Positions 56,409 through 64,000 of a stretch of 64,000 nucleotides of DNA are shown here, piece after piece. The stretch's first letter is position 1. Each line of letters opens with the position of its first letter. The DNA comes from an uncultured SAR116 cluster alpha proteobacterium (lineage in GTDB: Bacteria > Pseudomonadota > Alphaproteobacteria > Puniceispirillales > Puniceispirillaceae). The stretch lies in the NCBI GenBank assembly GCA_902625725.1, contig CACOCY010000011.1, positions 1-64,000 of the forward strand. Reading direction: 5' to 3'. Both the position numbers and the translations under genes were made by a program. Under the pieces are notes generated by a model. The model was not told the origin of the DNA and did no database searches. It saw only the letters and a program-made list of their open reading frames with translations.

Positions 56409-57590
56409 TTATCCTGCTAAAGCTTGTTTTTCGAGCATATTTTGAATATGTGTTTGACCACCACCTTGGTAAAGCGTGTTGTCAATTATAATATCTTCTG
56501 CATTTATTGTCTTTCCATCTGATAATACTAGCGCACGCTGAATTACGTTTTCGAGTTCGCGCACATTTCCAGGCCACGAATAATTTATCAATAGATCACG
56601 TGCTTTGGTCGATAAATTTGGAATAGCTTCTATTTTTATACAATGTCTTTCAATTAGGACAGTTGAGATAGGTACTATATCTAAAGGTCTTTCCGAAAGA
56701 CTTAAGGTTGATAGAGGAAACACGTTCAGTCGGTAATATAAATCTTCTCTAAAATTACCTTGCTTAATCTCCTCAACCATATTTCTATTGGTCGTTGCGA
56801 TCACTCTTACATCAACAGGAATAGCCGTATGAGAACCAATTGGTGTTACCGATTTTTCTTGCAAGGCTCGTAATAACTTCGCCTGTAAAGAAATTGGCAT
56901 TTCTGAGATTTCATCTAGTAATAAAGTTCCGCCATCTGCAGCTCTGAAAATACCTTTGTTAGTAGTTGATGCACCCGTAAATGAGCCTTTCTCATGTCCA
57001 AATAGAAGAGCTTCTAGCATATTTTCCGGTATTGCAGCGCAATTCACTGCAACAAAACCCGCCTCATTACGTTTCGAGTGCGTGTGAATTAATTTTGATA
57101 AGACCTCTTTACCAGTTCCGGTAGGTCCATTTATAAAAACTGTAACATCAGTTTTTGCTACACGTTTAGCTAATGCAAATAATTTAATGCTATTTTGATC
57201 GCTGGCAGCTATAGAACTTGAACTGGAGATGATGGTGGTCAACATTTGAAATCCATAATCTTCTGTGATGGGGTTGTTGTTCGATTTAGGTATGCTGAAG
57301 AACAGCATTCGTCCGCCTAGCTCAGGTTCGATTTGGAAAACATCCTGTTCTTCTCTAATAACACAAATTAGGTTGGCTTTTAATGATTTAGCATGAGAAA
57401 TTATAGCTTCGTTTCCTACTTTGTTAAAATAGGCCTCACTAATAATAATTATTTCACATTTGTATGAGGGGATGCCCATGTCTGTATTCAGACCTTTCGC
57501 ACACCTAAAAGGTATTTGACGAATTTGCATAATTTCGGTTAAGCGGTCTACAGATGTAAACATGCCGGTAATAAGGTGAACGTCGCTCAT
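56409..57590 (-). CDS. fleT: Sigma-54 activator without a DNA-binding domain, FleT-like
   Basis: This 393-residue protein has a 125-residue N-terminal domain that lacks an obvious receiver phosphorylation site, then an AAA+ domain with Walker A GPTGTGK (155-161), sigma-54 contact loop GSFTGA (202-207), Walker B GGTLLLDE (220-227) and [15 protein letters not shown]. It ends about 25 residues after the AAA+ domain, with no Fis-type helix-turn-helix. R. sphaeroides FleT, as I recall, has the same lack and works with FleQ. GAGGAAAAAC stands upstream of the chosen ATG. It heads fliE-F-G-H-I-J. It would need a DNA-binding partner. Confidence 0.85.
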   Translation of the reverse strand: MSDVHLITGMFTSVDRLTEIMQIRQIPFRCAKGLNTDMGIPSYKCEIIIISEAYFNKVGNEAIISHAKSLKANLICVIREEQDVFQIEPELGGRMLFFSIPKSNNNPITEDYGFQMLTTIISSSSSIAASDQNSIKLFALAKRVAKTDVTVFINGPTGTGKEVLSKLIHTHSKRNEAGFVAVNCAAIPENMLEALLFGHEKGSFTGASTTNKGIFRAADGGTLLLDEISEMPISLQAKLLRALQEKSVTPIGSHTAIPVDVRVIATTNRNMVEEIKQGNFREDLYYRLNVFPLSTLSLSERPLDIVPISTVLIERHCIKIEAIPNLSTKARDLLINYSWPGNVRELENVIQRALVLSDGKTINAEDIIIDNTLYQGGGQTHIQNMLEKQALAG

Positions 57591-57628
57591 TTGTTTTTCC
57601 TCATTAAAAAGTAACTGATTTAATAGAG

Positions 57629-57644
57629 GCAAAAAGCTTGCCAA
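57629..57644 (-). promoter_or_regulatory. Sigma-54 promoter for fleT-fliEFGHIJ
   Basis: The minus strand reads TTGGCAAGCTTTTTGC followed by C, with GG and GC ten bases apart and a match to TTGGCA-N6-TTGC. The expected transcription start is about 28 bases before the fleT ATG. It suggests that fleT is itself in the sigma-54 regulon and may be autoregulated. Confidence 0.82.
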
Positions 57645-57733
57645 CTTAAAACAAAGTAAAAATAAATTTTTAAGATATTGAAAAATAACAATAATCAATT
57701 AAATATTTGCCTGATTATTTGAACTCAAAATTC

Positions 57734-57749
57734 TGACACAGCACTTGCT
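57734..57749 (+). promoter_or_regulatory. Degenerate sigma-54-like promoter before fleQ
   Basis: TGACACAGCACTTGCT matches TGGCAC-N5-TTGCT except that the second G of the conserved GG pair is A. It lies about 55 bases before the fleQ ATG. The GG position is the most important in the -24 element, so it may be weak or inactive. Confidence 0.4.
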
Positions 57750-57804
57750 TTTATTCGTTAGATATGAACAAAATAATGACACTAAGAGTCTAAGGAACAA
57801 TTTG

Positions 57805-58899
57805 ATGAATTCCATTGATAACATTATTGTTGGCAAGTCACTCGCGATAGAGGAGGTTAAAAAGCTTGTTCAAGCTGTCGCAAAGACGCCTACAACTGTA
57901 CTTGTACAGGGAGAAACTGGAACAGGTAAAGAAGTTATATCAAGAGCTATACATGAACTATCTGGAAGGAAAGGAAAACTAGTCTCTGTTAATTGCGCAG
58001 CGATTCCTTCAGAGTTACTGGAGTCAGAATTATTTGGTCATGAGAAGGGCTCATTTACTGGAGCAGAAAAAACAAGGGCGGGTCGTTTCGAACAAGCTAG
58101 TGGCGGAACGTTATTTTTAGACGAAATAGGGGATATGCCAATTCCTCTTCAATCAAAATTATTAAGAGCGCTCGAGCAGAGAGTTATTCAAAGAGTTGGT
58201 AGTAATGAAGAAATTGCTGTTGATTTTCGACTAGTATGTGCAACACACCAAAATATGCAAATTAAAATTGATGAGGGTGCCTTTAGGTCAGATCTATTTT
58301 ACAGAATTAATGTGTTTCCTATTCAAGTGCCATCTCTTGCTGAGCGAGCGGTCGATATACCAAATCTGGTAAAGGCGATCCTAGAGCAATTGCAAGCATC
58401 TGTCTCACCCCAGTTTGACGACACGGGACTCGCAGAGCTTTCTAAATATCCTTGGCCAGGTAACGTGCGTGAACTCAGAAATGTTATTGAAAGAGCGAAC
58501 GTTTTATTTAAAGATAGTGTTATAACTAGTAAACATGTTCGTGAAAATTTATTAAGGCTCAAGGTCCCTGAGAGAGAAGAGGAACAGGCACTATTGTGGG
58601 ATGCTACAGCTGATTTACTAACTGAAGATGAGTTAAATCTAATTCCAGAGACAGAAAGTTCAATTCCACATCCCTCTCATTATAAACAATGGTTTGAATA
58701 TTTTGACACTATTGACTTAAGAAGACACTTGCGTGACGTTGAGGTAGTATTGATAGAGGCAGCGTTAGAAAAAACGGATGGTATGGTGAGTCAGGCAGCC
58801 GCGTCTCTGAAACTAAGGAGAACTACCTTAATTGAAAAAATGAAAAAACTTATGATTGAGAAGCCTTTGCCAAAAACCGAAACGTCGGAAGGCGCGTAA
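57805..58899 (+). CDS. fleQ: Sigma-54 activator without an N-terminal domain, FleQ-like
   Basis: This 364-residue protein begins almost at once with the AAA+ domain: Walker A GETGTGK (36-42), GSFTGA (82-87), Walker B GGTLFLDE (100-107), [16 protein letters not shown] linker follows, then a C-terminal Fis-type helix-turn-helix (316-350, [19 protein letters not shown]). It has no receiver or GAF domain, so its own regulation must come through partners. The divergent FleT-like protein has the opposite defect. AAGGAA eight bases before the ATG fixes the start. It should bind flagellar enhancer sites and open sigma-54 promoters. Confidence 0.85.
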
Positions 58900-58927: not shown

Positions 58928-59221
58928 TTAGTTAGCGTATCCTTTTAAACGTTTTAGGCTGGTTTTTGTCTTAGTGTTTAACTCTCGCATGTTTTTCTCA
59001 ACGGTTTGAATTAGGTATTTTTGTTTTTCTAAAGCGTTCTTCCATTCTTCATCAAAGTTTATACTGAATTTATTAGTGTTCGGTTGTTCTAGCTTTGATA
59101 GGAATAGCTCTTGTTTCTTCGCTAGGGTTTTGGCAGAACCATAATCTTCACTTTTAATAGCGCGAGATAATTTATCAGATAATTCGTTAAAAAAAGCTAA
59201 TGCCTCATCTGGTTTTATCAT
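58928..59221 (-). CDS. fliT: FliT-like flagellar export chaperone
   Basis: This 97-residue helical protein resembles FliT in size, with a leading helix (EALAFFNELSDKLSRAIKS), a middle with LAKKQELFLSKL and a charged end (TKTKTSLKRLKGY). FliT is the chaperone of the FliD cap in enterobacteria. It overlaps the fliS stop by four bases and would be made with FliS. Sequence evidence alone is weak; position after fliS is the main support. It converges with fleQ. Confidence 0.7.
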   Translation of the reverse strand: MIKPDEALAFFNELSDKLSRAIKSEDYGSAKTLAKKQELFLSKLEQPNTNKFSINFDEEWKNALEKQKYLIQTVEKNMRELNTKTKTSLKRLKGYAN

Positions 59222-59610
59222 AAAATTGTTCTAATCTCTGCCCATGCTTCTCTGATATCTTCCAAAGACGCAATAGCTACTAAAGTACCTGAAGCTTTGT
59301 CAGTCTTGGCTTCTGCTATCACCTGCTGTCGAGCATACTCATATAATCGGAATAGATTTTCTGCAATTTCACCACCATGTTCAAAATCAAGACTTGATTG
59401 CAATGCGTAAATAATCGTAAGTGCTCTGCTCATATTTTGAGATTTTAGATCATAATCACTTTTTTTTGTGTCTATATTTTCACTAAAAATACGAAGCGTT
59501 TTTATTAATTCGTCAAATAATAAAAGGACCATTGCATGAGAGTCCTCCGCTTCAACTATAGCTTTTTGTTCCGAATTTGAGTAAGCCTCTAACATTTTTG
59601 AGTAATTCAT
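59218..59610 (-). CDS. fliS: Flagellar secretion chaperone FliS
   Basis: This 130-residue helical protein has the FliS pattern: a short N-terminus with AYSNSEQKAIVEAEDSHAMV, LLLFDELIKTLRIFSENI, MSRALTIIYALQSSLDFEHG and GEIAENLFRLYEYARQQVI. FliS binds flagellin and keeps it unfolded for export. It overlaps fliT by four bases (ATGA). fliD would normally be a neighbour; here a hypothetical gene and a chloride transporter come between them. Confidence 0.9.
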   Translation of the reverse strand: MNYSKMLEAYSNSEQKAIVEAEDSHAMVLLLFDELIKTLRIFSENIDTKKSDYDLKSQNMSRALTIIYALQSSLDFEHGGEIAENLFRLYEYARQQVIAEAKTDKASGTLVAIASLEDIREAWAEIRTIL

Positions 59611-60053: not shown

Positions 60054-61793
60054 CTACTTTTTTTCTAAATCCACGACTTTATTTTGTGTGGTTAAATAAG
60101 CTTGAAAAAGATCAGCCTCACTAAGTATACCAACCATTTCGTTTGTTTCTTTATTAATAACTGGTATGGACTCTCCTACAAATTCACTGGCAATTTCAAT
60201 GCTCTGTTGAAGTGATGCATCATGTTTTATCTTGATAGGATTTTCCATCAATGAAGCACTCACGGGGAGACTATCTTTACTAGCTAACAATCTATGAAGA
60301 CTTACTTTCCCAATAAATACATTTTTCCTAGATATAACGTAGGCTTCGCTCACTTGTTTAAAGGCCATTTCTTTAATCGCATCTTTTATTCTCGTCTCAT
60401 TGGAAAAACTAACAAATTCTTTTTTGGCTAAATGACTAATTGTTTTTTCCATGAGTTCTATATAACTCCGACCTTGAGCAATATCAATTCCACGATCTAA
60501 CAATTGCCTATCAAAAAACGAATGACCAAATAGCAGATGTGCAATTAATGCACTCGTTACTACGCTCAACATCGCGGCTAGTGCCAATTCATAGCTCATT
60601 GTAAGCTCCAAAATTATTAGGACACCTGCTATGGGAGTGCCAACTACCGTGCTCGATATAGCAGCCATCCCGCAAATAATCAGACCAGGTCCTAGAGCCA
60701 CTCCAACTGTTGTCCCTCCGACTATAGTTGCAATTTTTGTGAATAAAGCACCAGAAGTTGCGCCAATGAATAAAGCCGGAGAAAATATTCCACCAAACAT
60801 TCCAAAGCCAATGCATACACTTGTGATTACAAGTTTGCCAATTAGCAAAAGTATTAAATAATTTAGAGAGAACCCATCATCTATAATATTCTGGATATGC
60901 TCAATTCCTAACCCAAGAATTTCAGGTAGAAACGAGCCTGTTAGACCTGTAGCAATCGCCGCAAAGAGCAATAATTTCCACGGTGACCAGTTTGTTTTTT
61001 TTGCTATTGATGCTGAATTTCTAAGCATAACCATGTAAGCAATTGACAGAAAACCAAACAATGGACCTGCAATTAAAGCCATTGGTAATAGATAGATTAA
61101 TTCTGTTGATACGCCAGTCAGTGTAAATGTACTCAAATTTCCAAAGAATATTTTACTAATACCTGCTGCTGTTATGCTTGTGATAGCAACAGGAGCAATA
61201 GCACGTAGTGAAAAATGCCGAAGGATGGTCTCACAAGCAAAGATAGTCCCGGCTATTGGTGCATTAAATCCTGCTGAAATAGCTCCAGCAACACCACAAC
61301 CTATGAACACATCCGCGCTTATGCTTCCTTTAGTAAGAGTTCTTACATAGCTTCCGACTGTAGCGCCAAAATGAACTAAAGGTCCATATTGACCAACTGA
61401 AGCTCCGCTGCCTGCTGATATGAAAGCAGCTATAGTAGAACCAAAGCCTTTTTTAACGTCAAGTTCGTTATCGGTTCTGTGGGCGGCATAGATCGAGTCT
61501 GCAGGACCATACCAACGGTCTATTAAAAATAATCGGCGAACTAACAAAAGTGCGCCAACAGCGATTAGAAGTGAAAGAATTGGAGCACTAGATAGTTCTT
61601 TTCCAAACAAACTTATTTCAAAAAAGCTCAGATAATGTCTTGAATTAAATAAAAATTCTACTCCCTTGACAAAGGCATTTGATGCAATAGCCATCAAAAT
61701 CCCAAAACTTACGCCTGTGACCATCACAATACAAATGATTTTGAGCGATTTAACTATATCGATGTCATTAGTTTGAGGTTTAGATTTAGCCAT
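60054..61793 (-). CDS. CLC-family chloride channel/transporter with CBS domains
   Basis: This 579-residue membrane protein has the CLC fold (about 1-430) followed by a C-terminal CBS-domain pair. Key differences from E. coli ClcA: the GSGIP-like motif reads YGPAD near 95-99, and the gating motif GREGP reads GQYGP at 134-138, with Tyr136 where the gating Glu148 is expected. The third motif, GGIFSPALF, is intact. The missing glutamate suggests that transport is a channel or is otherwise altered, although this variant may be normal in this clade. It lies between fliS/fliT and fliD on the opposite strand to fliD, with no clear flagellar role. Confidence 0.82.
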   Translation of the reverse strand: MAKSKPQTNDIDIVKSLKIICIVMVTGVSFGILMAIASNAFVKGVEFLFNSRHYLSFFEISLFGKELSSAPILSLLIAVGALLLVRRLFLIDRWYGPADSIYAAHRTDNELDVKKGFGSTIAAFISAGSGASVGQYGPLVHFGATVGSYVRTLTKGSISADVFIGCGVAGAISAGFNAPIAGTIFACETILRHFSLRAIAPVAITSITAAGISKIFFGNLSTFTLTGVSTELIYLLPMALIAGPLFGFLSIAYMVMLRNSASIAKKTNWSPWKLLLFAAIATGLTGSFLPEILGLGIEHIQNIIDDGFSLNYLILLLIGKLVITSVCIGFGMFGGIFSPALFIGATSGALFTKIATIVGGTTVGVALGPGLIICGMAAISSTVVGTPIAGVLIILELTMSYELALAAMLSVVTSALIAHLLFGHSFFDRQLLDRGIDIAQGRSYIELMEKTISHLAKKEFVSFSNETRIKDAIKEMAFKQVSEAYVISRKNVFIGKVSLHRLLASKDSLPVSASLMENPIKIKHDASLQQSIEIASEFVGESIPVINKETNEMVGILSEADLFQAYLTTQNKVVDLEKK

Positions 61794-61932: not shown

Positions 61933-61949
61933 TAGGCATAAAATTTGCA
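61933..61949 (+). promoter_or_regulatory. Sigma-54 promoter for fliD
   Basis: TAGGCATAAAATTTGCA has GG and GC ten bases apart and an exact TTTGCA. The -24 part (TAGGCAT) differs from the consensus at two positions. It lies about 60 bases before the fliD ATG. Confidence 0.6.
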
Positions 61950-62009: not shown

Positions 62010-64000
62010 ATGACGACTACAGATTATATAAATATTTTGAATGCTGGTAGTGGATTAAATACTAAAGAGATTATTGAATCTCTAGTTGAAGCAGAAAAAA
62101 CGCCGGTTGAAGCGCTGATAAACCAGAAAACAGAGGAATTAGAGGTATCAATATCAAGTTTTAGTACGTTAAAACAAAATTTTTCAGATTTGGAAACTAA
62201 CGCTTCAGCACTTGATGGAACAACAGGGATGTCAATATCGCAGTCAGGAAATTCGGTTACTGCGGAGGTAACAGATAATAGCTTATTTGGAGAATTTTCC
62301 AGTAGATTTGAAGTAAGCCAAATTGCTGCTTCACACACTTTGGTTTTTGACGGATTCACCTCTGAGCTAGCGAGTGTTGGAAGTGGTACGTTAACTTTTG
62401 AATTTGGCACTTGGACTAATGGGACATTTACTACCAATAGTGAGCTGACAGGAGGTAATGTGTCAATTGCGAGTGGTTCTGATACGCTTGCTGAGGTCAA
62501 AGCTTCAATTAATGCGGCAGGATTAGGGGTTACAGCTTCTATTTTAAAACAGTCTGATTCCAATTATGCTTTAGTCTTAAAATCTCAGGAAGGCAAAGAT
62601 AACGCCATGCGGATTTCAATGGGAACAAGTAAAACTGTATCTCAGTCAACACAAGGAGTAAGCGATACAACAGCAGAAGTGCAATCTGTAAGCGGATTTG
62701 CATCCGCAGATTTAGGTTCTCTGAATGGTAAAACACTATTCTTACATGACGGAACTAATTCAATATCGGTTGATTTTAGCTCTACGCCATCAAATCTAGC
62801 AGCTGTTGTGAGCGCGATAACCTCTGCCTCTGGGTATAGCAATATGGAATTTTCGGTTACAGCAGGAACCGATGCTTTAACTCTCACTTTTGATTCAGCT
62901 GATGGAGATGTAAGTCTAGCAGAAGTTAGTATACTTTCAACAGGTGGACCAGACAACAGCCAATTATATTACCTTACTAATTATGATACTGAGGGCGTTA
63001 ATTCCTATAAACCAGCAAAAGATTTGACAGTATCGCAAACAACACAGGGAGTATCAAATGTAACTGCTGAGATACAATCCGTTGCTGGGTTTAGTGCCTC
63101 TGAATTAAGTAATCTGAGTGGTAAAACATTATTTCTTTACGATGGAACAAATTCTTTGTCAGTAGATTTTGAGACAGAACCCGCTAATCTAGCATCCGTC
63201 GTAAGTGCCATAACGTCCGCAAGTGGGTATAGTGATATGGATTTTACGGTCTCAGGTTTGTCTGATGCTTTAACACTTACCTATAATGCCTCAGATGGAG
63301 ATGTTGAGCTTGGGGAAGTAAGTATATTGCCACCAAATAGTTTGGCCGTAACTCAGACCACCAAGGGAGTAACGGGCTCTACTGCGGAGGTGCAATCAGT
63401 AGCTGGTTTTACCTCGGCCGAGGTTAGTGATTTAAACGGCAAAACTTTGTTTTTTCACGATGGAACAAATTCTTTGTCAGTAGAATTTGACTCTGAACCA
63501 GCTGATTTAGCCGCTGTTGTAACCGCTATAACATCTGCAACTGGGTATAGTGATATGAATTTTACTGTTACAGCTGGCACAAATGCACTCACACTTACTT
63601 TTGATGCTGCAGACGGAGACGTAAACCTTGTAGATGCAGGTTTTTTAACAGCTACTCAAACAGTTACAGCTGTTGACGCAAATTTAACGATCGACGGAGT
63701 ACCAATTACAAGGACATCAAACACCATTACAGATTTGATTGATGGTGTTACACTTACATTGAATAGCACAACGTCCTCTGCTGAAGCTATATCTGGTTCT
63801 CATGATGCAGATACCGCATTTTTAGCCTTTTCTTTATTTGTTGAAGAGATAAATTCTGTAAAAACCAGTCTGAATAATTTGACAGATAGGGGAGGTTTAA
63901 CAAATGAGGCGGGACCGCTCGCAGGAGACCCGATAGCAAGTTATTTCAAGAATCAATTGAGCACTATTTTGAATGCTTCAATACCAGGTTTTGATGAGCA
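62010..64000 (+). CDS. fliD: Flagellar filament cap protein FliD, truncated by the window end
   Basis: This reading stays open for 663 codons to the window end. The N-terminal part has the FliD coiled-coil (SLVEAEKTPVEALINQKTEE) and a following region; residues about 150-195 resemble the flagellin-hook IN motif (SIASGSDTLAEVKASINAAG). Residues 210-546 hold three aligned copies of a 100-residue module, after which the normal FliD sequence resumes (LTIDGVPITRTSNTITDLID). FliD caps the filament and chaperones flagellin assembly. The modules are an insertion in the variable domain. The C-terminus lies beyond the window. Confidence 0.9.
   Translation, partial: MTTTDYINILNAGSGLNTKEIIESLVEAEKTPVEALINQKTEELEVSISSFSTLKQNFSDLETNASALDGTTGMSISQSGNSVTAEVTDNSLFGEFSSRFEVSQIAASHTLVFDGFTSELASVGSGTLTFEFGTWTNGTFTTNSELTGGNVSIASGSDTLAEVKASINAAGLGVTASILKQSDSNYALVLKSQEGKDNAMRISMGTSKTVSQSTQGVSDTTAEVQSVSGFASADLGSLNGKTLFLHDGTNSISVDFSSTPSNLAAVVSAITSASGYSNMEFSVTAGTDALTLTFDSADGDVSLAEVSILSTGGPDNSQLYYLTNYDTEGVNSYKPAKDLTVSQTTQGVSNVTAEIQSVAGFSASELSNLSGKTLFLYDGTNSLSVDFETEPANLASVVSAITSASGYSDMDFTVSGLSDALTLTYNASDGDVELGEVSILPPNSLAVTQTTKGVTGSTAEVQSVAGFTSAEVSDLNGKTLFFHDGTNSLSVEFDSEPADLAAVVTAITSATGYSDMNFTVTAGTNALTLTFDAADGDVNLVDAGFLTATQTVTAVDANLTIDGVPITRTSNTITDLIDGVTLTLNSTTSSAEAISGSHDADTAFLAFSLFVEEINSVKTSLNNLTDRGGLTNEAGPLAGDPIASYFKNQLSTILNASIPGFDE
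62637..62936 (+). repeat. FliD tandem module 1 (residues 210-309)
   Basis: This is the first of three 100-residue modules. It starts VSQSTQGVSD and ends DVSLAEVSIL. It aligns with module 2 without gaps; by hand count 68 of 100 residues are identical. Confidence 0.9.
63030..63329 (+). repeat. FliD tandem module 2 (residues 341-440)
   Basis: It starts VSQTTQGVSN and ends DVELGEVSIL. A 31-residue spacer separates it from module 1. It aligns with module 3 without gaps, with 64 of 100 residues identical by hand count. Confidence 0.9.
63348..63647 (+). repeat. FliD tandem module 3 (residues 447-546)
   Basis: It starts VTQTTKGVTG and ends DVNLVDAGFL. Only six residues separate it from module 2. 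The DNA coding for DGTNSLSV is identical in modules 2 and 3, which suggests recent duplication or gene conversion. Confidence 0.9.

Follow-up and report, generated by a model that had tools for sequence, protein, structure and literature searches.

The FliD flagellar cap protein encoded at the end of the window (the whole 64,000-nucleotide stretch of SAR116 DNA analysed here) carries three tandem copies of a module; the repeat is genuine and old, is confined to a single clade among the genomes searched, and is shared by flagellar axial proteins. We propose, with a probability of roughly 60%, that these modules are lineage-specific extra domains of the FliD head which make the cap plate larger in an oversized flagellum, their insertion and triplication being old.

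The module-bearing gene and its context

The gene starts at the ATG at position 62010 and, since the contig extends 560 bases beyond the window, 850 FliD residues are readable. Both FliD domains score above their curated Pfam cut-offs (PF02465, 47.8 bits for a cut-off of 24.8; PF07195, 119.5 bits for a cut-off of 25.4) and the module-bearing protein is an otherwise normal FliD (HAP2) flagellar cap protein. The features are as follows.

59218..59610, minus strand: fliS, flagellin export chaperone (PF02561, E 2.8e-23)
62010..64000, plus strand: fliD, cut by the window end and running on to the contig end without a stop
62049..62336, plus strand: FliD_N domain, residues 14-109 (PF02465, E 2.4e-12)
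62457..62615, plus strand: native IN-type segment of the FliD head, residues 150-202 (profile of 27 SAR116 FliDs)
62628..62939, plus strand: module 1, residues 207-310
62940..63020, plus strand: spacer between modules 1 and 2, 27 residues
63021..63332, plus strand: module 2, residues 338-441, absent in the alignment from two-copy relatives
63339..63650, plus strand: module 3, residues 444-547
63669..64000, plus strand: FliD_C domain, residue 554 to the window end, continuing to residue 846 (PF07195, E 1.9e-34)

The expected flagellar surroundings are present, with fliS in the window and the genome's FlgK and hook genes on another contig (C7). The gene at 60054-61793, located between fliS and fliD and oriented against fliD, reads in translation as a chloride-channel-like membrane protein. 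Near fliS, two divergent genes of sigma-54-activator type (56409-58899) are possibly flagellar regulators; Pfam supports this type for the gene at 57745-58899, and the other was assigned by reading its translation. A single -24/-12-type site with two mismatches lies 5' of fliD (61934-61949) and is not claimed as a promoter.

The sequence-only reading had described three gap-free modules, about two-thirds identical, at residues 210-309, 341-440 and 447-546 (starting at window positions 62637, 63030 and 63348), and this is confirmed. The three blocks align pairwise without gaps, with amino-acid identities of 68, 68 and 64% (67-71% at the DNA level); a DNA repeat finder independently recovered the same modules as a 266-nt family (67-73% identity), and a single BLASTP comparison of module 1 with module 3 gave E = 3e-49, which excludes chance similarity. 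The refined unit limits are residues of about 207-310, 338-441 and 444-547 instead of the earlier 100-residue blocks. Modules 2 and 3 directly abut (106-residue period) and 27 residues part modules 1 and 2. Together, the modules lengthen the FliD head by about 340 residues that are acidic (computed pI about 4) and free of cysteine, and their described location between the N-terminal part of the protein and its conserved C-terminal core is supported.

Age, copy number and conservation of the modules

From the DNA similarity of the copies, a recent expansion had been suggested, which we reject: silent sites are saturated in every genome examined and the copies are common to the genus. In the FliD of the window, dS between modules is about 1.2-2.5; across the five genomes examined, copies within each genome differ with dS of 0.95-2.5 and dN of 0.12-0.26, and their third positions are 41-58% identical. 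Saturated silent sites together with low dN point to an old triplication kept under purifying selection, and the triplication is older than the divergence within the genus of the window.

The number of copies varies among the relatives compared (three, two or none) and a uniform three was not seen, in line with the sequence-only reading. Three relatives (G002, G006 and G008) carry two copies; compared with the three-copy proteins, the length of their FliDs differs by exactly 106 residues, and their second copy clusters with module 3 (support 91/92). In a FliD tree built without the head, these two-copy proteins stand beside the three-copy G009, and the three-copy G000 and G005 fall outside. 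Three copies are thus probably ancestral in the genus, and the copy-number history would most simply require one loss, independent gains being the alternative.

Distant congeners share 71-86% identity in the modules and 42-67% in the FliD legs, which is a comparison of identities and not a selection test; this gap vanishes when G009 is compared with its close relatives.

Occurrence in SAR116 and outside

A profile of the module matched in 11 of the 61 genomes of the family: eight of the genus of the window, one of another genus (G024), and two with weak matches, in FliD for G011 and in a flagellin for G036. The order sample added no further genome with a match, and the class (385 genomes) and phylum (398 genomes) samples held no convincing copy, all three being partial samples. 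Two weak phylum-sample matches were dismissed as chance (one in a CysJ-like flavoprotein, one opposite a chemoreceptor-like gene, as read from the sequences), as were weak matches in 316-aa proteins of G053 and G049, which look on reading like an IspH-type enzyme. All strong matches lie in flagellar axial proteins, namely FliD and FlgK in the genus of the window and FliD, FlgK and FlgE in G024, and the module subfamily is, by these profile searches, confined to SAR116 among the genomes searched.

A phage origin was considered and discarded, phage records and viral contigs giving no significant match (one match had E = 5). A PHROG of unknown function matched weakly (E 0.002), and a viral structure search with the module returned nothing at E <= 0.001.

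A further repeat variant occurs in the FliDs of a third genus (G011, G016 and G017; about 1150 aa), each of which has two tandem repeats of about 97 residues.

L071:3944-7402, L070:4215-7712 and L072:4062-7502: third-genus FliDs with repeats of about 97 residues

The second half of these repeats aligns to the module profile with 95% probability and a score of 47.9 (60 shuffles gave at most 19.8), a remote relationship with the module. At least three SAR116 genera have therefore gained or retained repeated head domains in this broader sense.

Two further observations concern FliD in the family. The FliD of G036 (L073:2074-5859, 1262 aa) has a FliD_C match split in two, the first part being followed by a large region with repeats, reminiscent of the position of the Campylobacter D4 domain. 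Second, divergent FliD-like genes are found in G002 (G002:C198:3181-4785) and in G013 (L216, L047).

Sharing of the module between axial proteins

The FlgK of the genome under study (1739 aa; L005:4256-9475, contig C7) contains two clear copies and one diverged copy of the module, and profile matches were found in the FlgK of eight genomes of its genus; its FlgE (1491 aa) has no copy detectable by profile. In G024, all three proteins show the same order, an N-terminal half, a whole module and a C-terminal half, which reads as one module inserted within another, a putative nested cassette.

L056:4513-7038: G024 FliD, with the cassette
L056:11259-15464: G024 FlgK, with the cassette
L057:1-4080: G024 FlgE, with the cassette

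The whole modules of these three proteins cluster together in the tree (94/88) and are 66-77% alike between FliD and FlgE, and module 1 of the window shares 48-51% identity with the G024 FliD modules. Topology tests on the module tree rejected a clade of all FlgK modules (p-AU 0.027), were borderline for a clade of all FliD modules (0.051) and did not reject a clade of all G024 modules (0.143). Silent sites are also saturated in the G024 copies, and the trees, with a single genome of this second genus, would allow copying in either direction. In the FlgK alignment, the modules of both genera occupy the same place, which is empty in G052 and G054. The FliD site, in contrast, differs, being after the IN segment in the genus of the window and before it in G024, so that the FliD insertions were probably separate events. 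Taking trees and sites together, copying between axial genes within a lineage would be the best account of the sharing.

With the module in cap, junction and hook proteins, the flagellar parts of this clade appear to have swapped building blocks. One may tentatively go further and see the module as a common currency of the SAR116 shaft, copied, also in nested form, between the genes for hook, junction and cap, so that adjacent parts would bear matching outer domains touching each other or the same target; we hold this extension to be possible rather than probable.

Predicted fold and relation to the IN motif

Searches of the module against Pfam, NCBIfam and PDB sequences gave no accepted match and no known family covers it; with the module profile, the PDB sequence search returned no FliD match. 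A single-module model (pLDDT 63, pTM 0.55) shows the order strand, strand, helix, strand, strand, helix, strand, strand, strand. In a fold search with this model, PDB ranks 1-14 were all FliD structures (E. coli, Salmonella, Serratia and others), the best Foldseek match having E 4e-3, probability 1.00, TM 0.52 and an rmsd of about 11 A. Modelling, which had been proposed as a check, thus led to FliD through a loose fit of a moderate model (the full-head model reached a pLDDT of 48 only), and a FliD-type head domain is likely rather than certain.

The sequence-only reading had also likened the modules in outline to the flagellin hook IN motif. This likeness holds for the predicted order of secondary-structure elements and agrees with the fold search led by FliD; sequence homology is not established. 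PF07196 gave no match to module 1 above its curated cut-off, and its best E value, reached in three of the 17 module sequences, was 0.071. An hhalign comparison of the module with the native IN segment had a probability of 13%, near noise albeit above 60 of 60 shuffles, and the comparison with the longer native head (7.7%, exceeded by one of 80 shuffles) was not significant. With profile comparisons so close to noise, direct descent from the native IN motif is not demonstrated by sequence.

Proposed working and alternative explanations

In the cap, the legs of FliD plug the filament, and its D2-D3 domains make up the plate that faces outward (PMC12221982). FliD heads can be swapped or replaced with little effect on motility, and a head of twice the size can also take their place, but the terminal coiled coil does not tolerate such changes (PMC8533109). 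Campylobacter FliD is known to have an additional inserted domain (PMC7316729, PMC12221982), an insertion termed not unusual (PMC7316729), and one proposal holds that junction proteins diverge in the wake of the hook (PMC5691160). On our preferred reading, the cysteine-free and strongly acidic FliD would be exported unfolded through the flagellum and its legs would plug the filament tip; the modules would then refold on the outward-facing D2-D3 plate, where they would form larger arms. Such a plate would suit a flagellum with enlarged hook, junction and filament proteins, and SAR116 open frames reach 1576 aa for FlgE, 1766 for FlgK and 2101 for flagellin. Size matching between parts cannot be strict, since many SAR116 genomes have an oversized FlgE and FlgK yet a FliD of about 540-600 aa without module. 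Separately, one genome of the family (G029) has 12 Flagellin_N matches.

The main rival, which we consider unlikely, is that the modules are candidate adhesive repeats on the flagellar tip, gaining avidity for particles, algae or polysaccharide surfaces through repetition. Tandem, conserved and predicted strand-rich domains in the outermost flagellar protein would fit such a role, as would a conservation above that of the legs if the ligand is constant; for the D4 domain of Campylobacter, a role in binding has been put forward (PMC7316729), and FliD has links with adherence in certain bacteria. Module searches, however, matched no known adhesin or carbohydrate-binding family, and FlgK and FlgE, which have related copies, lie away from the tip. 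Neutral accretion appears less probable still: modules from other axial genes would have been fixed by drift in an insert-tolerant head and now kept only because misfolding would harm assembly. The small motility effect of replacing the head (PMC8533109) is in its favour, together with the fact that FliD inserts vary by genus or are absent and that insertion sites differ between genera. It accounts poorly for a dN well below dS, for modules that stay more alike than the legs among distant congeners, a pattern that suggests more than folding tolerance, and for the retention of three copies in divergent species.

Evasion of phages or grazers by repeats that vary in number and sequence and so escape recognition of the tip is very improbable. 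The copy numbers of three, two and none and the likely exposed position of the modules are what it would predict, but a single copy-number change is inferred in the genus and there is no recent duplication. The better conservation of modules than of legs between distant congeners argues against an evasion region and weakens the phage-evasion role suggested earlier.

Cap, junction and hook proteins have outer domains that are commonly regarded as a variable, separately evolving part of the flagellum. In SAR116, one lineage-restricted module is found in all three, at different sites and with a shared nested arrangement. This abundant marine clade offers a concrete case in which to ask how the outer domains of the flagellum are gained and whether touching parts change in concert.

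Comparison with known systems

The closest counterparts are the D2-D3 heads of FliD (for example the solved 5h5w, 5h5v and 5h5t), which share the FliD host and include the type of structure to which the module model best fits; SAR116 differs by extra tandem copies beyond one D2 and one D3, by a module sequence that is not recognisably the same and by related modules in FlgK and, in one genus, FlgE. The Campylobacter FliD D4 domain and the four-domain D2-D5 head of Helicobacter (PMC7316729, PMC8533109) likewise place extra globular domains in the cap protein. These inserts are not described in the two papers as tandem copies of one module, and the Campylobacter D4 lies in the D1 helix bundle whereas the modules of the window lie in the head. 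With the IN motif (PF07196), the second half of the module shares the predicted succession of elements, and it has a comparable helix (LAAVVSAIxSA versus LAEVKxAINAA), but the module is without the conserved IN pair and has an additional N-terminal half. Finally, giant flagellins (PMC6248924) and the enlarged hook and junction proteins of Campylobacter (PMC5691160) also have enlarged exposed domains in axial proteins, where a change in one part is thought to accompany a change in another; in SAR116, by contrast, a single module family is common to cap and junction proteins and extends in one genus to the hook protein.
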